Shown in pieces: positions 2,688 through 22,520 of a stretch of 23,304 nucleotides of DNA. This stretch comes from Campylobacter sp. (lineage in GTDB: Bacteria; Campylobacterota; Campylobacteria; Campylobacterales; Campylobacteraceae): the NCBI GenBank assembly GCA_024680445.1, contig JAILCJ010000196.1, positions 1-23,304 on the forward strand, read 5' to 3'. Position numbers and translations under genes: made by a program. Positions within the stretch are counted from its first letter, which is position 1, and every line of letters starts with the position of its first letter. The notes beneath the pieces are model-generated. The model was not told where the DNA came from. It saw nothing but the letters and a program-made list of their open reading frames with translations, and did not search any database.

Positions 2688-3197
2688 TTAAATTTTATTT
2701 TCTTTTAGCAAAATATATATGAGAGGATTCATAGCCGTTTCGCCTCTGGCTGCACAAAGCAAGACATCTTCAAAAAAATAATCGCTTGTGCCGTAAATCC
2801 TAAACTCATAAGCCCCAAAACCAAGCATGGCGGGGGTTAGCTCTATGCGTGAATACCACGCCGTTCTTGCGTTTATATATCTTTTGCTATCTTGCGAATA
2901 CACCCAAAGCGTGATATCGTCCTTGTTTGGCTGACGCATGAGCCAGATAAAAGAGTTGCCTATATCGTTAAAAAAATAGGTATCGCCGTTTGGCATAACG
3001 GCTTGGGCGGTTTGGTAAAGGTCGGTGATAAGGGTTTTGCTCTCATGGCAAATGGTCTTGTTTATATCGATATCTAGGGCTTTTTTATCAAAATTTCCGT
3101 GTTTTACGGTGATTTTTGATTCTTGTATGTCGATGTTAAAAATAAGCAGAGCCAAAACGCCAAGCATGATAGCTACGCCAAAAATTTGCCTTATCAT
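2688..3197 (-). CDS. NosL-like membrane-anchored protein
   Basis: A 169-residue protein with one N-terminal hydrophobic segment (about residues 4-21) and a soluble part that should lie in the periplasm. Residues 73-131 (YFFNDIGNSFIWL..., INARTAWYSR, then TPAMLGFGAYEF) resemble the C-terminal part of NosL-family copper chaperones. The usual NosL CxxCGM copper motif is absent; C50, M68, M124 and C148 are the possible soft-metal ligands. The ATG start overlaps the preceding gene's stop (ATGA). It is the last gene of the overlapping chain that also encodes a double-NosL protein. Copper binding is inferred from weak family resemblance and context. It could instead be a structural partner without metal. 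Confidence 0.7.
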   Translation of the reverse strand: MIRQIFGVAIMLGVLALLIFNIDIQESKITVKHGNFDKKALDIDINKTICHESKTLITDLYQTAQAVMPNGDTYFFNDIGNSFIWLMRQPNKDDITLWVYSQDSKRYINARTAWYSRIELTPAMLGFGAYEFRIYGTSDYFFEDVLLCAARGETAMNPLIYILLKENKI

Positions 3198-4147
3198 AAA
3201 AACACCCCATACAATATATAATACCTCGCCACAAAAAAGCTACAAAGCAAAACGCAAAGGCTTAAAAATATGCTTGAAAATTTAAGCAAATGCGTGTAAG
3301 TTTGCTTGGTGGCTAACTCTATCAAAAACGGCACAATCCCATAAAAAATGCCTAAAAATAGCGTCCCCCAGATAGCATAGCCCACATAAAAATAATCCTT
3401 GCTAAGCATGCAGTAAGGGCATTTGTGATTTGGCTGTTCGTATATATAAAGCCCGAAAAAATAAGTAATGGCATAATAAGCCACAAACAAAAATATCAAA
3501 TTTAGCCCAAAACTTGCCAAACTTTGCTTGGTAAAATTTAGCACCAAAATCGCCACAAAAAGCACATAAAATATCATAGCCAAGGCGTTTTGAGTGTAGC
3601 CAAATGGCAGTTTTGGAGCGTTAAAAACCACAGAACAGCAAAACACAGGCACCTTTAAAGGTATGTTTAAAAAATACAAAATTTCAAGCAAAAATTCCAG
3701 CAAAACAAGGGCAAAAATCACAGAAAAAATGAAGTATTTTCGCCTTAAAAATGGGAAATTTATCGCATTTAGGTCAAGGCGGTTAAGCACTAGCCAAAAA
3801 CCAAGCGAAAAAATAAGCAAAATTTTAAAAAGTAATAAAAAATTGCCATAAGCGTTTGAGCCTATCACCCCAGCCGAGCACATGGCACCGGGCACTATGG
3901 ATGCGAGTTCATCGAGGCTAAGGACAAAAAATATAAACAAAATTATCTTGCAAAATGCCGAAAAAAACAAAATCGTATTTACTAGATAATTCTTTTTTTC
4001 AAGGCTGTATTGTAGCGGTGAGCTAGAATCAAAATCCCAAAAACGCAAGATCGAAACGATATAAAACTGCGAAATACCCATTAAAGCGATAACGATGAGC
4101 TCTGCAAACAAAAAGGCGATAATATCGTTTGATAAAAATATACTCAC
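3194..4147 (-). CDS. Eight-TM protein with CPYC and CC motifs
   Basis: I do not recognise a named family. The 317-residue protein has about eight hydrophobic segments (near 10-32, 52-78, 100-121, 136-160, 184-204, 212-236, 251-276 and 286-314). Conserved-looking cysteines sit near loops or membrane faces: MCSAG at C90, FCCS at C170-C171, and HKCPYC at C243/C246 between segments 6 and 7. A CxxC pair in an inner-membrane protein fits thiol-disulfide exchange or soft-metal transfer. The start is GTG, overlapping the ATPase stop (GTGA), with GGAG seven bases upstream. Position between an ABC transporter and a NosL-like gene suggests work with copper or thiols at the membrane; this is inference. 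Confidence 0.75.
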   Translation of the reverse strand: MSIFLSNDIIAFLFAELIVIALMGISQFYIVSILRFWDFDSSSPLQYSLEKKNYLVNTILFFSAFCKIILFIFFVLSLDELASIVPGAMCSAGVIGSNAYGNFLLLFKILLIFSLGFWLVLNRLDLNAINFPFLRRKYFIFSVIFALVLLEFLLEILYFLNIPLKVPVFCCSVVFNAPKLPFGYTQNALAMIFYVLFVAILVLNFTKQSLASFGLNLIFLFVAYYAITYFFGLYIYEQPNHKCPYCMLSKDYFYVGYAIWGTLFLGIFYGIVPFLIELATKQTYTHLLKFSSIFLSLCVLLCSFFVARYYILYGVFL

Positions 4148-4818
4148 GAAATTTCTCCGTTTTGTAAAAATATCGTGCGATCTACGAAGTCTAAATCATC
4201 AAAAAGCAAGTCGTGAGTCGCGATGATAACGCATTTGCCAAGCTCTTTAAAGCTTTTTAGCATTTGGATAAAGATAAGGGAATTTTCTTTATCAAGGTTG
4301 GCGGTTGGTTCATCTGCCAAAATAATAGGCGGATCCATTACCAAAGCCCTTGCTATCGCACATCTTTGCTTTTCGCCCCCGCTTAGACTAGCAACGCTTT
4401 GATCTTTTTTGTGCTCTATGTTTGCGATTTGCATGGCTTTTTGGCAAAGCTCATTTACTTTGGCGGAGCTAAAATCGCTTATGCTTAGCGGTGCTTTGAC
4501 ATTATCTATAACGCTAAGTCCGTCAAGTAGATTGAAGGCTTGAAAGATAAAACCTACACTTTGGTGGCGGAGTTTTGAAGCCATGATATCAGGGAGTTTG
4601 GCGATGTTTTGTGAGTTGATTATCGCTTCTCCGCTACTTGCCTTGCTAAGTCCGCCCAAAATCGATAAAAGTGTGCTTTTACCGCTACCGCTCACGCCTT
4701 TTAGTATCAAAATTTCGCCCATTTCGGCGGTGAAATTTATGTTTTTTAAAGCCTTAAATTCGTTTGGCTTGCCCTCGTTATAAATTTTATAAAGATTTTT
4801 TACTTCTACAACGCTCAT
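4144..4818 (-). CDS. ABC transporter ATPase, LolD/MacB type
   Basis: Cytoplasmic ATPase subunit of 224 residues, typical size for the LolD/FtsE/MacB class. It has Walker A GVSGSGKST near residue 40, a Q-loop in GFIFQAFNLL, the signature LSGGEKQR, Walker B ILADEPTAN and the H-loop IIATHD. The ATG overlaps the permease stop by four bases (ATGA), so the pair is almost certainly one complex. This class works by mechanotransmission on periplasmic partners or extracts lipoproteins, rather than passing substrate through a channel. The substrate is unknown. NosL neighbours suggest a role comparable to NosDFY, the ABC system needed to make the copper centre of nitrous oxide reductase, but the ATPase looks more like LolD than NosF. 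Confidence 0.93.
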   Translation of the reverse strand: MSVVEVKNLYKIYNEGKPNEFKALKNINFTAEMGEILILKGVSGSGKSTLLSILGGLSKASSGEAIINSQNIAKLPDIMASKLRHQSVGFIFQAFNLLDGLSVIDNVKAPLSISDFSSAKVNELCQKAMQIANIEHKKDQSVASLSGGEKQRCAIARALVMDPPIILADEPTANLDKENSLIFIQMLKSFKELGKCVIIATHDLLFDDLDFVDRTIFLQNGEIS

Positions 4819-5924
4819 TTTACCGCCTCACTCATGTCGCTAATGGCGATTTGCCACGACGGGATAATCACAAAAGCCAAAAATGGTATCACGCTAAACA
4901 AAAAAATAAGAAAAAGCGTGTTTATATCGATAATAGGCGTGAAAGTTAGGGTGTTGGTCAAATTTGAACCAAGGAAAATTTCACGCAAAAATGGAGCGTC
5001 CAGCACAAAAACATAAAAATACGCAAGGGCAATGCTAAGCAAAAAAGCAGACATCGCCACTATGAAATTTTGTATAAATTTCAGGGCGATTATGTCTTTT
5101 ATGGCATAGCCTATGCTTCGCAAAATAGCGATTTCTCGGCGTTTTGTGCCATAAGATAGCGAAATTTGATTTTTTAGCAAAATGAAAAACGATATCATAG
5201 CCACGACATAAATCACCATGAAAATTCCGCCCTTGTAATAATACATGTGTTTTATCTCGGCTATCTTGTCTTCTATGCTTAAAACTTGTGAGTTTGGATA
5301 GATATTTGCTATGCTTAGGGCACTTTGGGCGATTTCGTTTGGGTTTGGCACATCGGCATAAATCTTTGTGTATTCGCCCTCTTCAAGGCTAAGCACCCTT
5401 CTTGCAGTGGCTGGACTAAGGCGGATAAGATCGTTGCTAAAAAGCGAACTTTCGTGTGGGGCTATCTTGTTTATCTTGACATTTATAAGTTCGTTTTCGG
5501 TTAAAAAGTTGAACTCATCTTTGTAGTAAAGCTCCGCCATGGCAATTTTTACGCCCTCGCCGATTATCATTTCATCATCACTTAACTCATCATCGCCTAC
5601 GACATGAAACCAAATTCTTTTTTGTCCGAAATAATAATACCCATCAACCACGCCCCACGCATCGCTAACGCCGTTAATGGTCTTGATATCATAGATATAG
5701 CCCTCATGCATCAAATCGCCCTTACCAGCCCTAAAAGCCTCGATTACTATGCTAGGCTGATTTTTGATAGCCTCGCTTAAATCGTGTTGGATAGAGCTTG
5801 AAATAAAAAGCACAGATGAAAGCACGAAAACTATAAAGGCAAAAATGCTAAAACTAAAAGCATGGTCGGCTTTGTCTTTTAAAAGTAGTTTAACTGCGTA
5901 GTTTATGAAATTTTTATTTAGCAT
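4815..5924 (-). CDS. FtsX/MacB-type ABC permease
   Basis: A 369-residue permease with the MacB/LolC layout: one TM near residues 22-45, a large periplasmic domain (about 46-235), then three TMs with the FtsX-type segment KRREIAILRSIGY before the last two. I chose ATG at 5922-5924, not an upstream TTG, because AAGGA lies eight bases before it. This start overlaps the end of the 62-residue gene by 11 bases. It pairs with the ATPase encoded next. The periplasmic domain has no cysteine pair or methionine-rich stretch that would mark direct copper binding, so a partner such as a NosL protein would have to give specificity. It could alternatively move a lipoprotein or peptide. Confidence 0.9.
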   Translation of the reverse strand: MLNKNFINYAVKLLLKDKADHAFSFSIFAFIVFVLSSVLFISSSIQHDLSEAIKNQPSIVIEAFRAGKGDLMHEGYIYDIKTINGVSDAWGVVDGYYYFGQKRIWFHVVGDDELSDDEMIIGEGVKIAMAELYYKDEFNFLTENELINVKINKIAPHESSLFSNDLIRLSPATARRVLSLEEGEYTKIYADVPNPNEIAQSALSIANIYPNSQVLSIEDKIAEIKHMYYYKGGIFMVIYVVAMISFFILLKNQISLSYGTKRREIAILRSIGYAIKDIIALKFIQNFIVAMSAFLLSIALAYFYVFVLDAPFLREIFLGSNLTNTLTFTPIIDINTLFLIFLFSVIPFLAFVIIPSWQIAISDMSEAVK

Positions 5925-6102
5925 AGACAAAGTCCTTATAAGCTTGGTTTTCAAAGCTAGTGCTTAGTTTTACATCTTTTATGCTTTTTGAAAATTTGGC
6001 TATCTCATCAGCTTTTTTTTCATAATCAAAGCTAAAAAAATGCACCGCCAAAGCTAGATAAATCACGCCAAAAAAAACAGCTAAAATCGTTAAAAATTTC
6101 AT
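5914..6102 (-). CDS. Small single-TM protein, 62 aa
   Basis: Unrecognised. Residues 3-22 form a hydrophobic helix and the rest is charged, with alternating lysine and acidic residues, so it is probably a membrane-anchored periplasmic peptide; the first 22 residues could also be a signal peptide. The evidence that it is real is its layout: the ATG overlaps the stop of the NosL gene by four bases (ATGA), and its stop overlaps the permease start by 11 bases. It may be an accessory subunit of the ABC complex. Without the overlaps I would not have called it. Confidence 0.65.
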   Translation of the reverse strand: MKFLTILAVFFGVIYLALAVHFFSFDYEKKADEIAKFSKSIKDVKLSTSFENQAYKDFVYAK

Positions 6103-7145
6103 AATTCTTTTACAAGTTTTTCATCTATCTCATCAAAACTAAGTATTTTTTTACCAGCATGTTCTCCTGCAAAACTTTGGGCTTCTTCTTCGGTTTTAAA
6201 AGGTATAAGCTCATCGCCCATAGGACCATAAACATTTGAACCAATGACAAAAAATGCAGTTTTTGCATCGATTTTATGGAGTTTGTAATAATCACTCACG
6301 AAAAGTTTGTCAAATTTTTTATCGTTTTGAAAATAAAATTTCATCATATCTTTTACGCCGTCAAAATAAATCTTTTCTTTGCCATTTTCTATCATAGCCA
6401 CCCATTGGGGATGTTTGGCTACTATCATGCCACAAACCGGACATCTAGCGTCTTTTGGCACCTTTATCTTTTCGGCTCGTTTTTTTTCACTCAAATTTTT
6501 TGGCTCATCCCAGATATACAAAGCCACGGCTTGCAAATCGCCATCGTTTTGGAGTTTGCATAAGTCTTTTAAATTTTGTTTTAAAAGGGCTATGTTTTCA
6601 TACTCTTTTTTATCTGTTTTTTGGCAATTTTTCTCATAAAGTTCTTTGCCTTTTTTATACACTCCGCCCTCTCTTTTGGCTTTTATCATCTTTTTATCCT
6701 CGCCAAAATCCTCTTTTGCCTTGGCATAAGCTGCCCTAAAATCCATTATCTCGCCGCCATTTTTTGCCATAAATTCCTTGGCGTCCGCTTCGTTTGCAAA
6801 GGCGTATTTGCTGTTTTTACTCATGGTGCCTTTTACCTTGCTACCAACTACATAAAAGGCTGTTTTTGCGTCTATAAAGCCTAAATTTTTTGTATCCATG
6901 ACCTTGGCGTCACTTGGGATAACTCCGTTTGTTGCCTCGTAAAGGCAGTGGAGTGAGCAGTATTGTTTGTCTTTATGGACATGGTTGGTTTTGTGAAATT
7001 TGATTAGATTCATACCGCAGTTTGGGCAGTAATTTTTCTCCTTGCCTTGCATTATCAAAGTAGCGTTTTCTTCGCTTACGCTTTGAAACATTTCACCCGC
7101 AAATGCCAAGCCAAAAATGGCTAAAAAAATTAAAATTTTTCTCAT
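6099..7145 (-). CDS. Double-NosL protein, putative copper chaperone
   Basis: NosL proteins are outer copper chaperones, known from nitrous oxide reductase maturation. This 348-residue protein has a signal peptide (to about residue 17) and two NosL modules. The first has CPNCGM at 40-45 plus C63 and C67; the second has CPVCGM at 235-240, KIYFDGVKDMMKFYF and IDAKTAFFVIGSNVYGPMG. Both keep the CxxCGM copper motif. Between them, residues 164-213 (KGKELYEKNC ... DLQAVALYIWDE) resemble a small monohaem cytochrome c domain that has lost its CxxCH. The gene overlaps both neighbours by ATGA. No nitrous oxide reductase gene is present, and the copper enzyme in reach is MccA, so I infer delivery of Cu(I) to MccA. 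Family call is firm; client is inferred. Confidence 0.88.
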   Translation of the reverse strand: MRKILIFLAIFGLAFAGEMFQSVSEENATLIMQGKEKNYCPNCGMNLIKFHKTNHVHKDKQYCSLHCLYEATNGVIPSDAKVMDTKNLGFIDAKTAFYVVGSKVKGTMSKNSKYAFANEADAKEFMAKNGGEIMDFRAAYAKAKEDFGEDKKMIKAKREGGVYKKGKELYEKNCQKTDKKEYENIALLKQNLKDLCKLQNDGDLQAVALYIWDEPKNLSEKKRAEKIKVPKDARCPVCGMIVAKHPQWVAMIENGKEKIYFDGVKDMMKFYFQNDKKFDKLFVSDYYKLHKIDAKTAFFVIGSNVYGPMGDELIPFKTEEEAQSFAGEHAGKKILSFDEIDEKLVKEL

Positions 7146-7978
7146 TTTTTACTATCCTTTTCTAAAATTTTTGCATTTTCGCACGCCTCGCCAAGCCCTT
7201 TATCACAAGCTTTTGCGAAAAATTCTTTGGCTTTTTTCTCATCTTTTTTTACGCCTTTTGCCTCGGCATACATTATGGCTATATCATTGCAACCTTTTGC
7301 GTAGCCAAGCATACACGAGCGTTCAAAATGCTTAGCCGCTTGTGCATAGTCTTGCATTACGCCTTGCGAAAAAGCGTAAAGATAGCCGAGATTATCACAC
7401 GCCATGCCTATGCCACCATTACAAGCCATTTCATAGTAAGTTTTGGCTTTTTTGAAGTCTTTTTCGACCCCTTCGCCTTTGTTGTAAAGATAGCCAAGGT
7501 TATTGCACCCCATCATATCGCCGTATTCGCAAGACTTTGTATAAAGCGAAATGGCTTTTTTGAGGTCTCGCTTGACCCCAGCGCCGTTGGCATAAAGCAA
7601 GCCAAGCGAAGTGCAAGCCTCGTTATCTTTACACGCTTTTTCATAATAATTTATCGCTTTTGTGAAATTTTGATCCACGCCTTGTCCGCTTTCGTGCATA
7701 TAACCAAGGTTGCCACAAGCCATGGCAAAGTCCATTTTACAAGATTTTTCATATAAGCTTAAAGCCTTTGCATAATCTTTTTCCACTCCACCGGTGCCTT
7801 CGTGATAGACAACGGCTAGATTGTAGCACCCTGATGCCTTATTTTGTTTGTTGCAGGCTTCATCGTAAATTTCTATAAGTTTTTTGTGATCACCTTTTTT
7901 TTGTGCGTCCATGCCGTCACTGATAAATCCGGCATTTGCGATAACGCCGAGTGCTAAAAGTAAGATAAATTTTTTCAT
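7142..7978 (-). CDS. Cysteine-rich Sel1-repeat periplasmic protein
   Basis: A 278-residue protein with a signal peptide (cleavage near residues 16-17, ANA-G) and about seven Sel1-like (TPR-related) repeats carrying the pattern A..YY/YE..C..G...AC.NLGY.Y..G.GV..D. Each repeat has a cysteine pair spaced six to eight residues apart, expected to form a disulfide within the helical hairpin. This is the architecture of the Helicobacter cysteine-rich (Hcp) proteins and similar Campylobacter proteins. It likely acts as a periplasmic scaffold for protein contacts. An AGGAAA site lies about five bases before the ATG; its stop overlaps the NosL start (ATGA), placing it in the copper chain. A link to MccA or CcsA1 assembly is inference. 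Confidence 0.88.
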   Translation of the reverse strand: MKKFILLLALGVIANAGFISDGMDAQKKGDHKKLIEIYDEACNKQNKASGCYNLAVVYHEGTGGVEKDYAKALSLYEKSCKMDFAMACGNLGYMHESGQGVDQNFTKAINYYEKACKDNEACTSLGLLYANGAGVKRDLKKAISLYTKSCEYGDMMGCNNLGYLYNKGEGVEKDFKKAKTYYEMACNGGIGMACDNLGYLYAFSQGVMQDYAQAAKHFERSCMLGYAKGCNDIAIMYAEAKGVKKDEKKAKEFFAKACDKGLGEACENAKILEKDSKK

Positions 7979-7989
7979 ATTTTTCCTTT

Positions 7990-10650
7990 CTAAATGGCTT
8001 TTATATCGCGACCTTTGTAGGCAAATGCGATAAGTAAAGCAAGTGCTATTAAAACAAAATAAAGTAAATTTGATGTATCTATGCTGTCTCCACTAGCATA
8101 AGAGTGCAAACCGCTTAGATAAAAATTTACGCCAAAATAAGTCATGATTATACTAAAAAATGCTAACAATGAAGCCACGCTAAATGTGTAAATTCCGTTA
8201 AATTTCGGTATCAAACGCAAATGCAAAACTATGGCATAAACGATGATAGACACATAAGACCATGTTTCTTTGCTATCCCAGCCCCAGTATCTGCCCCAGC
8301 TTTCATTTGCCCAAATCGCACCGAAAAAATTTCCTATGCTAAGCATGGATAAACCGACTATCAAGGCTATCTCATCTATGGCACAAAGATAGCGAATTTG
8401 AGCGTTTAATCGAGTGGAATTTTTGCTGTTTTTAAAAGCCATAAGAAGCAAATTTGTAAAGCCAAGCAAGGCAGATAGTCCCAAAAATCCATAACTTGCC
8501 GTGATAACTGACACATGGATACTAAGCCAATACGATTTTAGCACAGGCACAAGGTTTGTGATTTGAGGATTTACAAAACTCATGTGAGCCACCAGCATAA
8601 TGACACTGGCTAAAAGCGTTGAAGCCGAGATAGTAAGCAAGGACGAGCGGAAAAATAAAAGTCCAGCCAAAATACTAGAAAATCCTATATATATCATGCT
8701 TTCATAGCTATCGCTCCATGGGGCGTGTCCCGAGATATACCAGCGAAGTGCAAGTCCAAAGGCGTGGGCTAAAAAGCCAAAAATTAGCAAATAAAAGGCA
8801 AATTTGCTTAGTTTTTTGAAATCCTTGTTCGCCAAAATACCGCCAAATCCAAAAACAAAGCAAAAAAGCCCCAAAATCATATAAAAATAAAGCAAATTTT
8901 TAAAAATTTCAAGCTTGTTATATAGCACTTCGGCTTTGATTTTTTGATCGCTTGGCAAGATATGGGCTGAGGTCGAGTGTTGGTAGTTTTTAAGCTCGGC
9001 TAAGGCGTGGTTTGCCCTTTGCCAGTCGTTGTTTTGTATGCCGTTTTTTAAGCCGTCTATGTATTCGCTTAGCAGATTTTTGGTGCTTTCATTTATTTGA
9101 AAATTTGTAAAGGCATCATTTGGCGATAGCCAAGTATCGCTTGTATCGTTTGGCACAGGCACAAATCTAAAAAACACGCCTTTTAAAGCAAGATAAGCGA
9201 TATTTACTCTCTCATCAAATTTGATTATTTCATTATCAAATTTGCTTCTTTTTGATGGGCTTTTGGCGTTTGCGGCGTCGCTTTGTTTGGCTAGTTTGTA
9301 TTCGCCAAATTGATTAAACATAAAGCTAAAACTTACAAAATTTTCATCTTCGCCAAGCCCTAAAATCTGCTTAATCTCGGCGTTTTTTACCTTGATGATT
9401 TTTTGATCTTGCCAAAAATACGGATCCGTGCTTATGCCAAGGACGATTTGTTCAGGGCTAAGCCCAAAAAGCGTGTATTTGCCTGAAATTTTACTCACGA
9501 CCTCCCAAGACAAAGTGCTTGCCGGCTTTATACGCCCCATATAATCTTGCACCAAAAGGGTGGCAAATTCTTTTGTGGCGTGTTCTTTTGTGTTTTTATC
9601 AAATTTGGCAAAATCATCGGCTATCAAATTTGACCCCAAAAGTAGGCAAAAAATAAGCAATAAATTTGCATTTTTTAAAAATTTGCTTAGTTTGATAAAA
9701 CGAGAGTGTTTGCTAAACAAATTTAGCACAAAGCCCACGCAAAGCAAAAAATAGCCTATATAAGTTGGAATTTTGCCCGGATCGCGATTTACTTCTAATA
9801 TCGTGCCAAGCTCGTCTGTATCGTAAGATGACTGAAAAAATTTGTATCCACTGTAATTTAGTGGATTGTTCATAGAAATTTCGTGTTTTTGCTCCTCGCC
9901 GTTATGCAAAAGCGTAACAAAACTAGCGTAAGATGAGGCACTTTGTGAGCCCGGATAACGTTTAAGCTCGAATTTTTCTAGCCTAAAAGCAAAGGGCAAA
10001 CGAAGGATTTTTGCACCCCACGCAAGCATGATATTTTTGCCATTGTGCGTGATAGTTTGCGGCTCCCCAAGCCAGCCAACACCGCCTTTTAGGCTAAGTT
10101 CTTGACTTTGTTCGTTATCAAATTTGGCACTTAAATTTAGCGTGCTTCTTTTGCCTTTATCGGCTGGGATATAAGAGACAAATTTAAGTATCAAATTTGA
10201 TCCATTTATGTCTTGAATAAAAGTAAAATCATTATTCCCAAGGCGGGATAAATTTAAGTGAAATTCGTAGTTTTTATCTTCGGTGATGATGTTTAGATAG
10301 GGCTTTACGCTTAGCATTTCATCTGAATTTTCGCCAACTCTTAGGTGCAAGATGCCTTCTTCGCCAAGGTATCTTGTCATAAATGCCCCAAGAGCGATAA
10401 CGACAAAGGATAAATGCAAGGCGAAAAGTCCGAGATTTCGCCACATTTTTGTTTTTGTGATGATGGCTATCAAAGAGATACAAAGCAAAGCCATCACAAG
10501 CTCATACCAATGAGCGTCATAAACTAAAATTTTGGCTGTTTGGGTGTCGTAGGCACTTTCTATAAAGGTTGCCACCCCGGCACCCAAAGCCAAAATACCA
10601 AGCATGAAAATAACAAATTTATAAGACAAGAAAATTTTTAGTATTTTCAT
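7990..10650 (-). CDS. ccsA1: Cytochrome c synthase CcsA1 (ResB-CcsA fusion)
   Basis: System II haem lyase that carries haem across the inner membrane and attaches it to apocytochromes in the periplasm. The 886-residue protein is a CcsB(ResB)-CcsA fusion: TMs and a large periplasmic ResB part in the first half, then a CcsA half with the haem-handling WWD segment at about 782-801 (ESWGRYWGWDSKETW) and flanking TM histidines (HAFGLALRW, IHVSV). In Wolinella, CcsA1 is the dedicated enzyme for the CX15CH haem of MccA, and its gene is in the mcc locus, as here. Position ten bases after mccD with AAGGAG before the ATG supports this over a general-purpose synthase. Substrate preference itself cannot be read from sequence by eye. 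Confidence 0.93.
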   Translation of the reverse strand: MKILKIFLSYKFVIFMLGILALGAGVATFIESAYDTQTAKILVYDAHWYELVMALLCISLIAIITKTKMWRNLGLFALHLSFVVIALGAFMTRYLGEEGILHLRVGENSDEMLSVKPYLNIITEDKNYEFHLNLSRLGNNDFTFIQDINGSNLILKFVSYIPADKGKRSTLNLSAKFDNEQSQELSLKGGVGWLGEPQTITHNGKNIMLAWGAKILRLPFAFRLEKFELKRYPGSQSASSYASFVTLLHNGEEQKHEISMNNPLNYSGYKFFQSSYDTDELGTILEVNRDPGKIPTYIGYFLLCVGFVLNLFSKHSRFIKLSKFLKNANLLLIFCLLLGSNLIADDFAKFDKNTKEHATKEFATLLVQDYMGRIKPASTLSWEVVSKISGKYTLFGLSPEQIVLGISTDPYFWQDQKIIKVKNAEIKQILGLGEDENFVSFSFMFNQFGEYKLAKQSDAANAKSPSKRSKFDNEIIKFDERVNIAYLALKGVFFRFVPVPNDTSDTWLSPNDAFTNFQINESTKNLLSEYIDGLKNGIQNNDWQRANHALAELKNYQHSTSAHILPSDQKIKAEVLYNKLEIFKNLLYFYMILGLFCFVFGFGGILANKDFKKLSKFAFYLLIFGFLAHAFGLALRWYISGHAPWSDSYESMIYIGFSSILAGLLFFRSSLLTISASTLLASVIMLVAHMSFVNPQITNLVPVLKSYWLSIHVSVITASYGFLGLSALLGFTNLLLMAFKNSKNSTRLNAQIRYLCAIDEIALIVGLSMLSIGNFFGAIWANESWGRYWGWDSKETWSYVSIIVYAIVLHLRLIPKFNGIYTFSVASLLAFFSIIMTYFGVNFYLSGLHSYASGDSIDTSNLLYFVLIALALLIAFAYKGRDIKAI

Positions 10651-10660
10651 GCTTCTCCTT

Positions 10661-11608
10661 TTATCCTAAAATACTATAACTTTGTCCTGCATAAAGTATA
10701 AACATACGAAGCATTAATACGCCTATTATGCTTGCTATCGCACTAGCGTAAAATGCAAATTTTGTGTGAGCAACGGCTTTGCCAAGAGCAAAATTTAAAA
10801 CGATAGGCACAACAAAGCCAATGCCAACAACCCCAAACCAAAACATTTTAGCATAATTTCCGCCTATAAAAGCAGCACTTGCCATTTTTTGTGCGTCAGA
10901 GCCCAAAATAAGGGATACAAAAATCATGCCGATAAGCAAAATTTCAAAAGCCATTACCGGCCACTCGGCAAGATGTAAGATGTGATTATCACCCTCGTGT
11001 TTGGCTGCACCAAAACAAGCCGATGAAACTAGCATAGAACTAGCTATGCCCGCACTTAGCCCAGAAGCCACGAAAAGTGCTGGTAAAACGGCTGTGTTTA
11101 GGATAGGAAATCTTACCAAAACAGAGATCAAAAAGCCCGTATATGCACAAATGGCTACCGCAAAAATTAGGCTTAGGGCTAAGATGATTTTTCTTAAAGG
11201 ATTTAAGATTGAAAATATAGGCTTTAAAAAAGCAAATTTGTTTACAAATTCGGCTTCAAAGGCATACAAAAGCACAAAAAAGCTAAGCGGTATATAAATA
11301 CAAAGTGCCGCAACGCCGATAGACATTACAGAAGTGAAATTGTAATTTATCAAAATTTTCCAAAAATAAAGCGGTTTATCAAGATCGCCAACCAAGCAAA
11401 CCATACCTAGCAAAATCGTGATAAAAGCCACGACAGAGGCTGCCTTAAACAAAGGCGTAAATTCGCTTTGATTTTTATAGTAGCGAACAAGCAAAGCCAC
11501 TATCAAAGCTCCACCGCTCATACCAGCTAAGAGCAAATACACAGCTATCGGCCAGTGCCAAACCACGCCACTAGAAAAAGTTGTAGTAAAATTTATAGCT
11601 CCGTCCAT
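10661..11608 (-). CDS. mccD: NrfD/PsrC-type quinol dehydrogenase subunit MccD
   Basis: Integral membrane protein of 315 residues with about eight TMs and the NrfD family look (HWPIAVYLLLAGMSGGALI near residues 18-36; a later LAEWPVMAFEILLIG). It should oxidise menaquinol and hand electrons to the Fe-S protein encoded just upstream. The ATG lies one base after the mccC stop, with a G-rich site (GGGGGTG) five to six bases upstream, so the two are translated together. In Wolinella, MccC and MccD are the proposed route from the quinone pool to the sulfite reductase. The family is clear; the mcc name rests on the adjacent mccA. Confidence 0.93.
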   Translation of the reverse strand: MDGAINFTTTFSSGVVWHWPIAVYLLLAGMSGGALIVALLVRYYKNQSEFTPLFKAASVVAFITILLGMVCLVGDLDKPLYFWKILINYNFTSVMSIGVAALCIYIPLSFFVLLYAFEAEFVNKFAFLKPIFSILNPLRKIILALSLIFAVAICAYTGFLISVLVRFPILNTAVLPALFVASGLSAGIASSMLVSSACFGAAKHEGDNHILHLAEWPVMAFEILLIGMIFVSLILGSDAQKMASAAFIGGNYAKMFWFGVVGIGFVVPIVLNFALGKAVAHTKFAFYASAIASIIGVLMLRMFILYAGQSYSILG

Positions 11609-11609
11609 T

Positions 11610-12284
11610 TCACACCCCCATTTTTACAGCCGGGATATAACGCAAACTCGGCTTTGTGCCACACTCTGGTCGCATTCTAAGGCTGTCTTTGATTTTTAGA
11701 AGTTTGCTTATATGGGCATCTTCATCGTTTAGATCGCCAAATACCAAGGCATCATAGCGACATGCTTCGACACAAGCCGGTTCTTTGCCGTTTTTCAAAT
11801 TTGTATCTAAACAAAAGTTGCAACTTTCAGCCGAATGAGTTTGGGCGTTGATAAAACGCACATCATACGGACAGGCGACTATGCAGTATTTACAGGCTAT
11901 GCAGTCGTTTGCGTTGGTCGTGGTGATATTTGTTAGGCTGTCTTTGTGACAGGCATTTGTAGGGCAAACCGCAACGCATGGAGCCTCAACGCATTGTTGG
12001 CAAGAAACTCTCACGTAGCGTTTGTTCATTCTATCATTTGGATCGGTTTTATCCTCGACAAAAAGCCTCATTTGCCCTTTTGGGACAAGATTTACCTTAG
12101 CACATGCCCTTTCGCAATCGGTACAGCCGACACATTTGTTTTGGTCAAATATCATGCCAAAATTTGGCTTTTTGGCTTTTTGGCTTTCGCCGCTTTTTTC
12201 GGTACCAAAGGCTAAGGTGCCGATAGTTGCAGAGCCAAAGGCGAGATATTTAACAAATGCTCGTCGTTTAAAATTTGTTTTCAT
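11610..12284 (-). CDS. mccC: Four-cluster ferredoxin subunit MccC (NrfC-like), Tat substrate
   Basis: Periplasmic electron carrier of 224 residues from the chosen start. The N-terminus has a twin-arginine signal (FKRRAFVKYLAFG). Four cysteine groups fit four [4Fe-4S] clusters: CVGCTDCERAC, CQQCVEAPCVAVCP, CIACKYCIVACP, and CNFC with a later CVEAC. I chose the ATG at 12282-12284 rather than one four codons upstream because GGAGG lies between them, five bases before the chosen ATG. It should take electrons from MccD and pass them to MccA. The gene is 25 bases after mccB and one base before mccD. Confidence 0.94.
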   Translation of the reverse strand: MKTNFKRRAFVKYLAFGSATIGTLAFGTEKSGESQKAKKPNFGMIFDQNKCVGCTDCERACAKVNLVPKGQMRLFVEDKTDPNDRMNKRYVRVSCQQCVEAPCVAVCPTNACHKDSLTNITTTNANDCIACKYCIVACPYDVRFINAQTHSAESCNFCLDTNLKNGKEPACVEACRYDALVFGDLNDEDAHISKLLKIKDSLRMRPECGTKPSLRYIPAVKMGV

Positions 12285-12309
12285 ATTTCCCTCCACTCAT
12301 AAGCAAATT

Positions 12310-13047
12310 TTATTTTTTTGGAGCGGGATTTTTTGGGACTTCGACTTTTTCGCCCGGTTTATAGACTTTTAAAAGTTCGATCTCAAAGGTTACGACCCCG
12401 CCACCCGGTATTACATCATTGCCTTCATCGCCGTAAGCGATATCGCTTGGCATTACGAATTTGTATTTTGAACCTACATCCATAAGCAAAATGCTTTCTT
12501 TAAATCCATCTATCACACTTACTAATGATAGATACGCTGGCACTTTTTTTTCATAGGTATTTTCAAACTCTTTGCCGTCTGGCAAATAAGCTTTGTAATT
12601 TACCACAACAATACTTTCAGGCTTGGCTTTTTCGCCGTTTCCTGGTGCTAGCATTTGGTATTGAAGTCCTGATTTTGTAACTTTAACATCTTTGTTTTTG
12701 GCGTTTTTTGCCATGTATTCTTTGCCGATTTTTTTATTTTTTTCTAGTTCGGCTTTTTTGTTTTTTTCAGAAATTTGATTTAGTTTTTCTGCTCTGTCGT
12801 TTAAAAGCGTGATTATCTCATCATCACTAAATTTGATTTTATTTTTTAAAGCGTCCATAAGTCCGTCTATGACAGCATTTAGGTCGTGTTTTACGCCTAG
12901 TTTTGCTTGATTATGGAGCTGATTTTGTATATAACTTCCAGTCGATGCACCGATAGCATAAGATTCTTTTTGTTCTTGGCTCATATCCGCAAAGCTATAA
13001 TTTGCCATACAAAATATCGCCACGAAACTTAACATAATTTTTTGCAT
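12310..13047 (-). CDS. mccB: FKBP-type peptidyl-prolyl isomerase MccB
   Basis: A 245-residue secreted isomerase of the Mip/FkpA class: signal peptide (to about residue 20), a helical dimerisation domain (about 25-115, including the charged KKAELEKNKKIGKEYMAK stretch), and an FKBP domain (about 120-232) with SGLQYQML, VVVNYKAYLPDGKEFENTY and IAYGDEGNDVIPGGGVVTFEIELL. It should catalyse proline isomerisation during periplasmic folding. In Wolinella, mccB directly follows mccA. MccA is large and carries eight haems, so a dedicated folding helper makes sense. It is 55 bases downstream of mccA, with a hairpin in the gap; AAGGT lies about seven bases before the ATG. Confidence 0.94.
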   Translation of the reverse strand: MQKIMLSFVAIFCMANYSFADMSQEQKESYAIGASTGSYIQNQLHNQAKLGVKHDLNAVIDGLMDALKNKIKFSDDEIITLLNDRAEKLNQISEKNKKAELEKNKKIGKEYMAKNAKNKDVKVTKSGLQYQMLAPGNGEKAKPESIVVVNYKAYLPDGKEFENTYEKKVPAYLSLVSVIDGFKESILLMDVGSKYKFVMPSDIAYGDEGNDVIPGGGVVTFEIELLKVYKPGEKVEVPKNPAPKK

Positions 13048-13102: not shown

Positions 13103-15166
13103 TTAAATTTTACTATTTAAAATTCTTTGAGCTTCTTCTACATAGCCTTTTGCGGCATCAACTCTTTGTTTTGTGTATTTAAATCCATGCATACCCCATG
13201 AACCATCTTTTTCTAGCAAATCAACTGTGTCTTGGGCTTTTTCGATAAGCTCATAAACTCTTGATTTACTTGATGGATCAAGTTTTTTGGTTTCAAGAAT
13301 TTTATACATGCCTTCTATATTTATTTTTATAGAAGTGTAAGCATTTTTGATAGGTGTTTGCCAGCCCATGACTTCATCGTAAGCTTGTTTTTGGTTTTTG
13401 AAGTGCAAGGTTTCTTTTAGCTCTGAAATAACAGGACTATGGCAACCTTTGTTTTCTACCATATCAAGGTCAGCCCATGAAGTTCTAGCGCAAGCCCACA
13501 TCAAATCTACGAAGTTTCTGCCGTCCTCATTTCTTTGGAAGTGCCAATCTTTCGCATCTCTTGGACTTTGTGAAGTAGAACCTGCGACCATGGTTTTACG
13601 GTCCGGACTAATATCTATTTTCCAGATATGTGAGCGACGTTGAGTATCAAAACCTGCTTGATCTTGGAACTGAATAGCATAGAAATTTTCACAACTCATC
13701 ATAAACGGCATATGGCAAGACGCACAAGAATTTGTTTTGTGTGTGTCTGCACGAGCTGCTATGTAAGCTTGTGTTTTATGGCAATCAGCACATGTTTTTG
13801 TGATTTTTGGTTTTGAGTAAAGTGCGCTTAGATAGCCTTGTTCTGAATTGTAATTTATACCTTTGATATTTTTATCGCCAGTAACCAAACCAGTAACATC
13901 GTGCGGATCGTGGCAGGTTGTACATCTCATGCCTTTTTCATAGTGAGCGGTGAAGTATGATTGAGAACCTTCTGAACCACAGCCTGGTCCCATTGATTTA
14001 AATTTAGAGCTAAGTGCCAAATCCGGAGCAACTTTGCCAAGCGGATGAGCTTTGTATAGGTCTGGACTCCAGTTAAATCTTTGGTGACAGCGTTCGCAGT
14101 TTGACATTCTGAAATTTGTAGCACCGTCAAGGTGACCGCCAGCGCCGTGGCACTCTTCACAGCTTACACCTTTTGAAATGGTGTGTTTTTGAAGTTCTTT
14201 TGCGTTACCAAGGGCTTTATAAAAGTCTTCTTTTGTTTTAAAATCAAATTTGAACGGGTGGCAAACTTCGCAATATGAAGCGTTTGCTTGAAAATTCATA
14301 GAGTGTTTGTAAGTAGCCGCATAAGATGCAAGACCTCTTACATAGCCGGTATTTAAGCCATACTCTTCGAGAGTTTCAGGGAATTCTGGAACCCATTTTT
14401 TGATCTTTTTAACAACTTCTGGGGTGAGATTTAACGCCCAAGTTCTTTGCCATTGGTTTGAGCCCGGAGTTATGGTACCGGTGCCGTCTCTTAGCAAACC
14501 ACCTGCTACATGGTAAGTACCACGAAGTAGCCAAGCGTCTATAAAGCCAAGTTTTGTTCTAACATGTCCAACTGTTGCATAAACTACATCAGGCGTGATA
14601 CCTTGCGGTAAAACAGGTGCAGTGTCTTCGCTAAATACAGGATCTGTTAGGTTGTTGTTAAACTCTGGGTGTTCGCCCGGGAAGCGGATAGTAGTTGAGT
14701 GGCGTGATCTGCTCCATGATTCGTATTGAGCAGGGTGGCACTCACCGCACTTTTCAGAGCCAACGAATTTGTTTGGGAACATGAGTGATGAACCGGCTGG
14801 GATTCTATACATCATAGAGCTGTATCCTTCGCCAAATTCACGTTTTGTTACCTTAGAAAGATCTTTACCGTGTCCTTCTTCGAGCCACTCGTGACCTCGG
14901 TCAACGACTTTCATCTTGCCATCGACTTTACCGCCGTATTTTGTAAAAATCGGGTGATTTTTAAAAAGCCAGTCATACATCTCTTTTTCTTCTACGATGT
15001 AGTCTTGAAGAGATATGACACCTCTATCTTTGAGAGTTCCATTAGGATTTGCTATGACGCCCTGTGCCGCACCAGTCATTTGCATACCCTCGTGAGCACA
15101 GGCTGACGAGGCAAATACGCCTATCCCGGCAAGCAAGCCAATGAGCGCTTTATCCAGGCCTTTCAT
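13103..15166 (-). CDS. mccA: Octahaem sulfite reductase MccA (CX15CH)
   Basis: Periplasmic cytochrome that reduces sulfite to sulfide as a terminal reductase. The 687-residue precursor has a signal peptide (cleavage near ACA-HE, residue 24). Seven classical motifs begin at C140, C299, C336, C357, C415, C459 and C481. The eighth is C559-(15 residues)-C575-H576, the CX15CH signature of MccA's active-site haem. The only other cysteines after the signal are C396 and C492; their 96-residue spacing equals that of the two cysteines I recall binding Cu(I) in the Wolinella enzyme (399 and 495). The ATG at 15164-15166 has AAGGAGG five bases upstream; an upstream TTG is rejected. First gene of the accessory train. 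Confidence 0.97.
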   Translation of the reverse strand: MKGLDKALIGLLAGIGVFASSACAHEGMQMTGAAQGVIANPNGTLKDRGVISLQDYIVEEKEMYDWLFKNHPIFTKYGGKVDGKMKVVDRGHEWLEEGHGKDLSKVTKREFGEGYSSMMYRIPAGSSLMFPNKFVGSEKCGECHPAQYESWSRSRHSTTIRFPGEHPEFNNNLTDPVFSEDTAPVLPQGITPDVVYATVGHVRTKLGFIDAWLLRGTYHVAGGLLRDGTGTITPGSNQWQRTWALNLTPEVVKKIKKWVPEFPETLEEYGLNTGYVRGLASYAATYKHSMNFQANASYCEVCHPFKFDFKTKEDFYKALGNAKELQKHTISKGVSCEECHGAGGHLDGATNFRMSNCERCHQRFNWSPDLYKAHPLGKVAPDLALSSKFKSMGPGCGSEGSQSYFTAHYEKGMRCTTCHDPHDVTGLVTGDKNIKGINYNSEQGYLSALYSKPKITKTCADCHKTQAYIAARADTHKTNSCASCHMPFMMSCENFYAIQFQDQAGFDTQRRSHIWKIDISPDRKTMVAGSTSQSPRDAKDWHFQRNEDGRNFVDLMWACARTSWADLDMVENKGCHSPVISELKETLHFKNQKQAYDEVMGWQTPIKNAYTSIKINIEGMYKILETKKLDPSSKSRVYELIEKAQDTVDLLEKDGSWGMHGFKYTKQRVDAAKGYVEEAQRILNSKI

Positions 15167-15184
15167 GCTTTCCTCCTTTGCAGA

Positions 15185-15202
15185 ATTTTTGAATTCAAAA
15201 AT
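15185..15202. promoter_or_regulatory. 18-bp perfect palindrome upstream of mccA
   Basis: ATTTTTGAATTCAAAAAT is a perfect palindrome ending two bases before the mccA ribosome-binding region. It could be an operator, or a short hairpin in the leader that leaves the ribosome site open. Eleven bases of its core, TGAATTCAAAA with one more A, recur at 15271-15282 in the end of the sensor kinase gene. Confidence 0.5.
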
Positions 15203-15223
15203 CAAAAAGATTTCGTATTGATA

Positions 15224-15267: not shown

Positions 15268-16692
15268 TTATGAATTCAAAAAGCTAATTGTAAATATTAC
15301 TCCGTTTTGTGTGTTTTTAACTGTTATAAATCCATTGTTTTTTTTCATTATAACTTGGCTCATATAAAGTCCCAAACCGCTACCATTTTTTTTGGTAGTA
15401 AAATTTGGTTTGAAAATCTTGTCAATATGCTTTTTATCGATATTTCCAGCATTGTTTTCTATGCTGATATTTCTAGAACGAGAGCTAGTAAAAGAGCAAA
15501 TTTTAATTTGTCTTTCGTTTATATTTTGTTCATTAAATGCGTCTTTTGCATTGTTTATGATGTTAATGATAATCTGTATTAATTCGTTAATATTTCCAAA
15601 ATGAGAGAAATTTTCTTTTATTTGTATATCTAAATTTATCACAGAATTTTTGATGACGGAATTTAAAATTTTAAGTGCTTGATCTATGGCATTTTGGCTT
15701 GAAAACTCGCATCTTTGTGCCTTTGGATCAAAGAAATTTTTAAAGTCATTTATAGTGCTTGACATAAATTTTATTTGTTCATCTATTTCACCTATTTTTT
15801 CGCTTAGTTTGGCTTTTGTTAATTTATCTTTATCGCTATAAAGTTCTAAATTTATAAGTGCTTGGCTGATTTGAGCAAGGGGCTGTTTCCACTGATGAGA
15901 TATGCTAGCTATCATTTCGCCCATGCTTGCAAGGCGACTTTGGTGAGTCATCAACTCCTCGTCTTGTTGTTTGATTTTCGCCATTTTTTCATGTATTTTA
16001 AAGACCAAAAAGCTAAGCAAAACAAAAACAACAAAAAGCAAAATCGCACTGGCTATGAGTTCGTTTATATGATAAGCCAAAAGATCACGAACCGGCATTT
16101 TAAACGATATCATCGCTATCGTATCGCCTACTTTGCCCTCGAAATTTTTGCTTTTTCCGTATTGTTCTATTAGTTTTTTTGGCACAGAATTTATGTTATG
16201 ACAGGCGATGCACGAGGCTTGGGAATTTTTTATAGGCAAACCTACATAAATGTAAGAGACATTATCATCTGTGATGATTTTTGAAAATTCATCATAACGT
16301 TTTTCTTTAAAACCCTCTAAAATTTCGTTTTCAAATTCATCGCCTAGATGTGCCGGATTTAAGGGGTCTGTGGCTATGAGTTTATAATCATAATTTATAT
16401 TTTTTTTGGCTTTTTGGATATTGTAAATTTCACGAGTGATATAAGATGAGGATTGTAAACGTGGATCGAAAAAATCGCTTGGTAAGAGTTTTTGACCTAT
16501 CAATTCATCGAGCAAAGGGCGTTGAATCGTCGAGACATAATCCCGCACGGCATTTAAGGTATCTAGCACATAAAAGGCTTCTTGCCTTGCGTCTTTTAAT
16601 GCCAAATGTCGGTAAAAAGCAAAAACCAAGCTTAAAATAAGCACATAAAGTATCGCAAAGATAGCAAGGACAAAGCGAAATCTGTACTTCAT
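15268..16692 (-). CDS. mccS: Haem-domain sensor histidine kinase (MccS-like)
   Basis: A 474-residue inner-membrane sensor: TM at about 7-27, periplasmic domain about 30-205, TM at about 210-232, then the kinase. The periplasmic part resembles the Tll0287-like (DUF3365) family (YVSTIQRPLLDEL..., FDPRLQSSSYITREI) and carries CIACH at 161-165, so it should bind one c-type haem and could sense redox state or a small ligand. The kinase has H266 in SISHQWKQPL, an N-box IINNAKDAF near 378-386 and a G-box GSGLGLYMSQ near 438-447. It has no receiver domain, and no response regulator lies beside it. AAGGGAG lies just before the ATG. Its place upstream of mccA suggests control of sulfite respiration, as proposed for MccRS. 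Confidence 0.88.
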   Translation of the reverse strand: MKYRFRFVLAIFAILYVLILSLVFAFYRHLALKDARQEAFYVLDTLNAVRDYVSTIQRPLLDELIGQKLLPSDFFDPRLQSSSYITREIYNIQKAKKNINYDYKLIATDPLNPAHLGDEFENEILEGFKEKRYDEFSKIITDDNVSYIYVGLPIKNSQASCIACHNINSVPKKLIEQYGKSKNFEGKVGDTIAMISFKMPVRDLLAYHINELIASAILLFVVFVLLSFLVFKIHEKMAKIKQQDEELMTHQSRLASMGEMIASISHQWKQPLAQISQALINLELYSDKDKLTKAKLSEKIGEIDEQIKFMSSTINDFKNFFDPKAQRCEFSSQNAIDQALKILNSVIKNSVINLDIQIKENFSHFGNINELIQIIINIINNAKDAFNEQNINERQIKICSFTSSRSRNISIENNAGNIDKKHIDKIFKPNFTTKKNGSGLGLYMSQVIMKKNNGFITVKNTQNGVIFTISFLNS

Positions 16693-16830: not shown

Positions 16831-17364
16831 TTAGCCCTGATATGCCACGCTAAATATAAAATCCTCAAAACAAAACGATGAAATTTTGGCAAATTTGATT
16901 TTTGAATTTTTAAAATAATATCCGCCTTGTTCGCAAATTCCAAGCTTATCGATATCGCAAAATTCTTTATCGCCAAATTTGATAAGACTTTCTTTTGTTG
17001 TGTAGATTTTATAAAATTCTTTTAGTTTATCTTTTGAGTTTTCAAGCATGATTTTTTCGTCTTTGCTAAAACAAAAATCAACTTGATTTTGGTAATTTCT
17101 TGCCCTTAGATATTCGATATCAACGCCGATTTTAAAATCCGCATAAGCTATGAGACTAAGATCTTTTTTGTGCGAAATACAAGAGAAATTTCTTTTAAAT
17201 TTTTTGCTTTTTTCAAGTAAAAATCGTGAGTGAGTAAAACTTGCTCTTTCGTTCAAATTTGATGAAATTTTGCCTTTGGCTATGCAAAAAACTATGTCAG
17301 CGTCATCTTTGTATTTTGTGATTTCGTTACTATCGCATGTTAAAGAAAAATAAAAAAACTCCAA
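16831..17364 (-). CDS. 4'-phosphopantetheinyl transferase (Sfp/AcpS superfamily)
   Basis: Transfers phosphopantetheine from CoA to acyl carrier proteins. From the chosen start it is 177 residues. Signature motifs: SCISH, then IGVDIE (about residues 79-84, magnesium ligands D and E) and FYKIYTTKESLIKF (about 117-130), matching the (W/F)xxKE(A/S)xxK motif. No ATG exists in the first hundred codons. I chose TTG at 17362-17364 because GGAG lies five bases before it; a TTG at 17440-17442 would place the start inside the divergent oxidoreductase gene. It should activate the carrier proteins of the polyene cluster on the other strand, whose genes are outside the window. Confidence 0.85.
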   Translation of the reverse strand: MEFFYFSLTCDSNEITKYKDDADIVFCIAKGKISSNLNERASFTHSRFLLEKSKKFKRNFSCISHKKDLSLIAYADFKIGVDIEYLRARNYQNQVDFCFSKDEKIMLENSKDKLKEFYKIYTTKESLIKFGDKEFCDIDKLGICEQGGYYFKNSKIKFAKISSFCFEDFIFSVAYQG

Positions 17365-17436
17365 AAAATCTCCGTTTAATAAAAATTCAATTTCTGTTTT
17401 GTTAAAATAACAAAATTTTTGTAACAAGGGGCTTAA
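17365..17436. promoter_or_regulatory. Divergent promoter region, inverted repeat
   Basis: These 72 bases separate the left-facing transferase gene from the right-facing oxidoreductase. TTTTGTTA-AAA-TAACAAAA (17397-17415) is an inverted repeat with eight-base perfect arms, and ACAAAATTTTTGT overlaps its right arm. TAAAAT within the repeat could be a -10 box for the rightward genes. AAGGGG at 17426-17431 is the ribosome site for the oxidoreductase. A repressor or two-way activator site is a reasonable guess. Confidence 0.4.
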
Positions 17437-18651: not shown

Positions 18652-18989
18652 GTAAAATTTTACTTTTTGGCATTTTACTTTTTGGTTGTGCGACAAAATA
18701 CCCTCAAATTTCGCCGCAATTTAGTCAAAAAAGTTTTGAGCTAAAAAGCAAAAGCGAGGCTTATATTTTGCATGTTTCAAAGCAAGATGAGAGTTATTTT
18801 TTTGCTTTGTTTGATTATTTTGGAGCACCGGTGGCGAGTAAGGAATTTAAAGATTCGCGTTTTAAAAATACCAAATTTATGCCACCTAACTCCAAATTTG
18901 ATGATATATTTTATGAGCTTTTAAAGCAAATTTTGGCAAAAAATACAAATTTTGTTTTTAAAGACTTTGTTATAAAGGAAATTGATTGA
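18630..18989 (+). CDS. Small lipoprotein
   Basis: A 119-residue protein whose N-terminus (residues 8-20, ending LLFGC) is a lipoprotein signal with the lipid-bearing cysteine at C20, so it is probably membrane-anchored on the periplasmic side. The rest is a compact domain with SEAYILHVSKQDESYFFALFDYFGAPVASKEF. In aryl polyene clusters a DUF3261-type lipoprotein commonly sits just before the first ketosynthase gene; this one occupies that place but is shorter than those I know. Its start overlaps the oxidoreductase gene by 22 bases, and its stop overlaps the next gene's TTG. Function unknown; help in export or outer-membrane placement of the pigment is a guess. Confidence 0.8.
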   Translation: MAVFAKISKILLFGILLFGCATKYPQISPQFSQKSFELKSKSEAYILHVSKQDESYFFALFDYFGAPVASKEFKDSRFKNTKFMPPNSKFDDIFYELLKQILAKNTNFVFKDFVIKEID

Positions 18990-22507: not shown

Positions 22508-22520
22508 TAAGGAGAAAAAA

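Follow-up and report, generated by a model that had tools for sequence, protein, structure and literature searches.

A NosL and LolC/MacB-type transporter module at the end of the Campylobacterota mcc operon occupies the place held elsewhere by NosLDFY and probably delivers copper

Results

A seven-gene chain ends the mcc operon of a Campylobacter species

We analysed a 23,304-nucleotide stretch of Campylobacter sp. DNA (GenBank assembly GCA_024680445.1, contig JAILCJ010000196.1; hereafter the window), which is contig C57 of a draft genome of 1.72 Mb and 98.98% completeness (G000). Its sequence holds, complete on the minus strand from 7978 to 2688, a chain of seven genes. Among them are a double NosL protein, an ATP-binding cassette (ABC) transporter and a membrane protein that we call CPYC. 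The chain is the end of a canonical mcc operon, whose order on the minus strand is sensor kinase, MccA, FKBP isomerase, 4Fe-4S protein, NrfD-type subunit, CcsA1 and the seven genes:

15268..16692, minus strand: sensor kinase with a Tll0287-like sensor domain, upstream of mccA (Pfam)
13103..15205, minus strand: MccA, octahaem haem c-copper sulfite reductase, the presumed client (phmmer to PDB 4rkm, 1270 bits)
12310..13047, minus strand: MccB, FKBP-type prolyl isomerase (Pfam FKBP_N/FKBP_C)
11610..12296, minus strand: MccC, 4Fe-4S protein, NrfC-like (Pfam Fer4_11; best NCBIfam match NrfC, below cut-off)
10661..11608, minus strand: MccD, NrfD-type quinol dehydrogenase (Pfam NrfD, 1.1e-63)
7990..10650, minus strand: CcsA1, haem lyase, ResB + CcsA (Pfam Cytochrom_C_asm, ResB)
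7142..7978, minus strand: Sel1-repeat protein with 14 cysteines, HcpC-like (Pfam Sel1, 1.3e-51; PDB 1ouv, 1.4e-63)
6099..7145, minus strand: double-NosL protein, presumed Cu(I) chaperone (Pfam NosL in two stretches; PDB NosL, 2.7e-12)
5914..6102, minus strand: 62-residue peptide with one hydrophobic N-terminal stretch
4815..5924, minus strand: type VII (FtsX/LolC/MacB-type) ABC permease, 369 residues (Pfam FtsX, 7.9e-10)
4144..4818, minus strand: LolD-like ABC ATPase (Pfam ABC_tran, 8e-32; PDB LolD, 2.6e-43)
3194..4147, minus strand: CPYC membrane protein with eight long helices (no family match over cut-off in Pfam or NCBIfam)
2688..3197, minus strand: putative remote NosL-like protein with a hydrophobic N-terminus (hhalign to a NosL profile)

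The window's MccA has seven CxxCH motifs and one CX15CH, giving eight haem sites, together with C409 and C505 (numbering of the 700-residue open reading frame). We take the latter two to be the copper ligands, matched by motif to C399 and C495 of W. succinogenes. The sensor kinase carries one CxxCH beside its Tll0287-like domain, and the closest named homologue of the permease is from Campylobacter sp. RM13119.

All six junctions of the chain overlap in the window, as the preliminary description had claimed. Four are ATGA overlaps (Sel1/NosL at 7142-7145, NosL/62-residue peptide at 6099-6102, permease/ATPase at 4815-4818 and CPYC/last gene at 3194-3197), the ATPase/CPYC junction is a GTGA overlap (4144-4147), and the peptide and permease genes share 11 bp (5914-5924). 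For the permease we use the ATG at 5924, which agrees with its homologues; the TTG at 5954 chosen by the open reading frame caller gives a longer protein. We then surveyed 20 related mcc loci, excluding the window, for an in-frame start codon at the place of each overlap. The 4-bp permease/ATPase overlap and the CPYC/last gene overlap each recur in 20 of 20 loci, the ATPase/CPYC overlap in 18 of 20, the 11-bp overlap in all 19 loci that possess the peptide, and the 4-bp NosL/peptide overlap in 15 of these 19. At the Sel1/NosL junction, an overlap of any size is present in 3 of 18 measurable loci (two were not measurable). Thus five of the six junctions are conserved among relatives, and the Sel1/NosL junction mostly is not. 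A promoter scan found 42 sites, against 44.3 in shuffled sequence.

NosLDFY stands in the same place in SirA-clade Pseudomonadota

Among 298 surveyed Campylobacterota genomes, 86 have an MccA match. We divide these into class 1 (48 genomes, 62-100% identity) and class 2, which is MccA-like (38 genomes, 44-51% identity, or broken pieces in G120). Searching named genomes with an MccA alignment yielded 77 further loci, drawn from the best 80 of 100 relatives. With 40 fetched earlier this made 117 loci, 105 of which have at least 8 kb of sequence downstream of mccA.

In this set, 32 of 35 class-1 Campylobacterota loci (some genomes being counted twice) have the permease or CPYC; L162, L163 and L165 end before these genes. 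NosD is present in none of 39 class-1 loci. In contrast, SirA-clade Pseudomonadota, namely Shewanella, Ferrimonas, Marinobacter and most of the Sutterellaceae that we found, carry NosL-NosD-NosF-NosY in the same operon: of 37 SirA-clade loci with at least 8 kb, 36 have NosD, 35 NosL and 35 a NosY-like protein, and none has CPYC or an FtsX permease. The locus without NosD is L197 of Ferrimonas senticii, whose second locus, L210, has it; L189 has NosD alone of the NosLDFY genes. Pfam confirmed NosL, the ABC ATPase and the ABC2 permease on loci of Shewanella (L179) and Parasutterella (L183), and NosD on these two and on Marinobacter L190. The NCBIfam NosD model TIGR04247 scored over its cut-off in four of four loci, including Ferrimonas L202. 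For S. oneidensis, a table in the literature groups nosL (SO0485) and nosY (SO0488) with the sir genes (PMC5955497), so the sir-linked nos genes are not themselves new.

The remaining 33 loci are class-2-like, and 32 of them have neither set; L141 adjoins a nos operon. Three of the 33 (L212, L214 and L224) belong to Pseudomonadota, indicating that the contrast follows MccA clade and not simply phylum. On the MccA tree, the rows with the module make up a single starred clade, the class-2-like rows make up a second one, and the NosD rows fall in two sets between them rather than in one clade. The states module, NosD and none require three changes on this tree, where the minimum is two, the extra one being due to L197. 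Our data show that the Campylobacterota module occupies the place that NosLDFY holds for the same enzyme elsewhere.

The window's draft genome, at its 98.98% completeness, has no NosZ match and no NosD match (TIGR04247). NosD is likewise absent from all 12 class-1 genomes that lack nosZ, among them that of the window, and is present in all seven class-1 genomes with nosZ that were tested; six further genomes tested, five of them class 2, have none. In the 12 genomes, then, NosDFY cannot serve MccA in trans.

Proteins of the module

Pfam bears out the gene set first read from the sequence for the double NosL, the FtsX permease, the ABC ATPase and Sel1, and hhalign does so for the NosL-like last gene. 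Pfam NosL matches the double NosL in two stretches (1.7e-48), each with a CxxCGM site (C40-C43 and C235-C238), and these two domains are the only Pfam NosL matches in the window's genome. In some relatives, for example L120, NosL is split over two genes. Neither Pfam nor NCBIfam gives a match for the last gene, and its counterpart in L110 does not match Pfam NosL either. Aligned to a NosL profile, it gives an hhalign probability of 96.7% (E 3.5e-10) over 118 columns, with a single cysteine (C50) in the position of the NosL CxxCGM. Its own profile found no NosL among PDB entries, only chance rows. On this profile evidence we regard the last protein as a putative remote relative of NosL.

The permease is of type VII (LolC/MacB/FtsX): Pfam and Foldseek agree on an FtsX-like fold with an extracytoplasmic domain. 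Its AlphaFold model (pLDDT, predicted local distance difference test, 79.6) matches LolE (2.8e-14) and MacB (9.0e-13), and also HrtB, YbbP and FtsX. It is not a NosY-type ABC2 permease, since it matches only FtsX in Pfam and has the LolC/MacB fold. The ATPase is nearest to LolD in a PDB search; its best NCBIfam match is the LolD equivalog model, at 187.7 bits against a curated cut-off of 307.75. LolCDE and MacB transporters act on the periplasmic side of the membrane.

CPYC has five cysteines and one histidine (C90, C170, C171, H241, C243 and C246) that do not vary in any of 47 aligned relatives. By helix count they lie on the same membrane face, and loop charges weakly favour a periplasmic location for the cysteine side. 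The AlphaFold model (pLDDT 90.1) has eight long helices. No Foldseek match was found at E <= 0.001, and most VIA matches were generic helical bundles that cover about residues 1-169; this is not evidence for a new fold. The CPxC motif is reminiscent of DsbB and VKOR. We also considered an internal duplication, which the comparison of the two halves does not support (hhalign probability 1.5%, E 0.034).

The 62-residue peptide has a homologue of 61-65 residues in 19 of 20 mcc loci on closer inspection (17 at first labelling), L127 lacking one, and a protein of about 104 residues occupies its place in non-mcc copies. The Sel1 protein (278 residues, 14 cysteines) matches PDB 1ouv, which we take to be HcpC. 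All 20 mcc loci have a labelled Sel1 gene; of the 39 non-mcc loci one does, and there it does not adjoin the module. It is therefore an mcc neighbour and not part of the module core, contrary to its initial inclusion in the set.

CPYC accompanies class-1 MccA and is common without it

CPYC is encoded in 106 of the 298 genomes, among them 48 of 48 class-1 and five of 38 class-2 genomes, and in 20 of 20 fetched class-1 loci the chain lies downstream of CcsA1 in the same order. The window's genome has a single CPYC copy; several others hold two or three. In the CPYC tree, the mcc-locus copies (with that of G056) form one clade, with a support of 98 in the SH-aLRT (Shimodaira-Hasegawa-like approximate likelihood ratio test).

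The preliminary description proposed a co-occurrence survey of this kind, treated the genes as specific to MccA and named frequent occurrence without mccA as an observation that would refute this. The expected association is complete on the side of class-1 MccA. From the other side, 58 of the 106 CPYC genomes lack class-1 MccA (31 with NosZ, 27 without), and we no longer regard the core as MccA-specific.

Some mcc loci vary around the chain. Of the 20 fetched mcc loci, 19 have a labelled sensor kinase, the exception being L128, and some operons have extra genes between CcsA1 and Sel1, for proteins of about 168 residues (L125, L128) or 422-426 residues (L125, L128, L130). At class-2 loci (L131-L150, L211-L227), whose MccA-like proteins are also octahaem proteins, a six-CxxCH protein of about 690 residues is the partner in most Campylobacterota and Mucispirillum loci, and a CcsA1-like haem lyase is often also present.

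Module copies are found in nos operons

We fetched 39 non-mcc loci and found CPYC joined by the permease in 37 and by the ATPase in 38; in 27 there is a protein labelled as NosL, with those that belong to nos operons counted in. NosL is present in 106 of 106 CPYC genomes, and occurs without CPYC in 23 genomes, 19 of which have nosZ. For 15 of the CPYC copies outside mcc, a nosZ gene is found on the same contig at a distance of no more than 21 kb. At L110 and L074 the module sits between a nosF-like ATPase gene and a gene for a NosY-type permease (ABC2_membrane_2), with NosD upstream; L102 has the same order by weaker matches, and locus labels point to a similar arrangement, or to a module just behind, at L078, L093, L098 and L099. 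Module copies between nosF- and nosY-like genes are there with NosFY, not in its stead. In the CPYC tree the nos-linked copies do not group together; their eight rows take eight changes.

The idea of a machine analogous to NosDFY yet distinct from it is supported at mcc operons, with their MacB/LolC-type transporter, the lack of NosD and the presence of NosLDFY in SirA-clade operons. It does not extend to those copies that accompany NosFY.

One genome (G206) has two near-identical CPYC copies (L102 and L103), one in the nos operon and the other elsewhere, with branch lengths of 0 and 0.018. Close to non-mcc module copies, L073 (8339-9049) and eight other loci encode a membrane protein of about 236 residues with the motif GHCVGMCGG, which by its look we take to be of DsbD/TauE type and which is possibly a copper or thiol transporter.

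A related five-gene insertion in nos has been described, in the order hypothetical protein, ABC permease, ATPase, hypothetical protein, hypothetical protein, and was left unexplained (PMC4794192). It matches the small protein, permease, ATPase, CPYC and NosL-like protein of L110, and the accessible part of that paper gives it no function and draws no tie to mcc.

Discussion

Copper delivery and its alternatives

Taken together, these data suggest that the Campylobacterota module probably delivers copper, in the position that NosLDFY has beside this enzyme in other bacteria. Besides this replacement and the co-occurrence with class-1 MccA, the reading is favoured by NosL in every CPYC genome, by the absence of NosD from class-1 genomes without nosZ, by related copies next to another copper enzyme in nos operons, by the single clade of mcc copies and by the type VII character of the permease and ATPase. 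We infer each functional step from gene content, gene order, homology, conservation and distribution. The double NosL would take up Cu(I) and carry it in the periplasm. The permease and ATPase would not pump copper; they would spend ATP on shifting or opening a partner in the periplasm, as is established for LolCDE and MacB, for release or docking. CPYC would hold Cu(I), or keep cysteine sites reduced, through its invariant cysteines and histidine, and the 62-residue peptide and the degenerate NosL-like protein would dock the complex. Sel1 would adapt the module to MccA, and Cu(I) would finally reach Cys409 and Cys505 of MccA.

Several observations weigh against this reading. The 48/48 co-occurrence goes back to a single mcc origin and its counts are therefore not independent: one clade of mcc copies points to one recruitment followed by co-inheritance, not to 48 separate events. 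In 27 genomes CPYC occurs with neither class-1 MccA nor NosZ. We had expected MccA-like proteins without the module to have lost the copper cysteines, and this failed: 20 of 20 aligned class-2 proteins keep both, with 33 of the 38 class-2 genomes lacking CPYC and 32 lacking any NosL. Class-2 proteins apparently either receive copper otherwise or hold none, and the presence of copper ligands is not enough to predict the module. G056 retains the chain with no MccA match. Its locus (L071) has the whole chain together with CcsA1, MccD and a lower-scoring MccC, and no mccB or kinase, which looks like a deletion. An mccA-like gene is also present in S. arcachonense and S. barnesii, which reportedly do not use sulfite (PMC4794192). 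Together with G056, they indicate that the presence of the operon is no proof of its function.

The strongest competitor, which we consider a real possibility though short of an even chance, is a module for general Cu(I) handling in the periplasm of Campylobacterota, serving homeostasis or any copper enzyme and captured by the mcc operon rather than dedicated to MccA. It would account for the 58 CPYC genomes without class-1 MccA, including the 27 that also lack NosZ, for the two or three copies in several genomes, and for copies beside housekeeping-looking genes (named from sequence only). It fits less well with the single clade of mcc copies, with the mcc copy being the sole one in the window's genome, and with the module taking the place of NosLDFY. 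That the module instead serves haem c attachment, or the reduction of apoprotein thiols, seems unlikely to us. NosL in every CPYC genome and NosLDFY in the same place in SirA-clade Pseudomonadota both argue for copper; on the other side, the haem exporter HrtB is among the Foldseek matches of the permease, CPYC has a CxxC, and the chain comes after the CcsA1 haem lyase. MccA is moreover a c-type cytochrome and Campylobacterota NosZ also carries haem c (PMC4794192), which makes the nos link compatible with a haem role and so counts against copper delivery. Least probable, and by a wide margin below even odds, is a cassette for copper export or resistance whose regulation is coupled to that of sulfite respiration. 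Together with an adaptor and an outer-membrane duct, ABC transporters like MacB are able to power efflux, but by Pfam none of the seven genes encodes an adaptor or a TolC-like protein, and copies sit within copper-enzyme operons.

Other genes in the window

The rest of the window (16831-23304, mainly plus strand) holds an aryl-polyene-like biosynthesis cluster. Pfam identifies a phosphopantetheinyl transferase, an FAD halogenase-like oxidoreductase, a ketosynthase and an ApeP-like dehydratase, and a ketoreductase and a second ketosynthase were read from the sequence.

Comparison with known systems

With somewhat less confidence than for copper delivery as such, we favour the view that Campylobacterota have a second solution for Cu(I) loading of periplasmic respiratory copper reductases, made up of NosL, a LolC/MacB-type mechanotransmission ABC transporter and the previously unrecognised Cys/His membrane protein CPYC. 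This solution would take the place of NosDFY in the MccA operon and, in some nos operons, add to NosFY. A natural swap of two ABC systems at one enzyme hints at what is needed, namely NosL and an ATPase acting on the periplasm, and maybe not NosD; it also makes the copper-loading question directly testable. Through its related copies in nos operons, the module may also matter for how Campylobacterota remove nitrous oxide.

To our knowledge the whole module has not been compared with NosDFY before. The mcc cluster of Wolinella succinogenes has reportedly been published by Kern in 2011 and Hermann in 2015; the locus that we take to be from W. succinogenes (L129, genome G167) has the same order and all module genes. 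A later paper on MccR, MccC, MccD and MccL is said to describe MccL as a putative copper chaperone in sulfite respiration. Our literature search, which carries little weight because subscription journals were mostly outside its coverage, found no paper naming the module as a copper system. The preliminary description knew of no account of it, which stands for a copper system, although the mcc cluster itself and the unexplained nos insertion (PMC4794192) were on record.

The nearest functional parallel is NosL-NosDFY, which serves CuZ assembly of nitrous oxide reductase and is also found in Shewanella sir operons. Both sets place a NosL-family protein with an ABC ATPase and permease in the operon of a periplasmic copper reductase, the NosL of the window chain being established by Pfam in its two stretches. 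Unlike NosL-NosDFY, the chain has no NosD and its permease is of FtsX/LolC type rather than ABC2_membrane_2; it doubles NosL and includes three further components, which are CPYC, the small membrane peptide and the degenerate NosL-like protein. With LolCDE and MacB the module shares the permease fold and a LolD-like ATPase; it differs from them in having one permease gene, and NosL partners instead of efflux or lipoprotein-sorting ones. NosL with an ABC transporter at a copper reductase was already known; what is new is the replacement of NosLDFY by this module.

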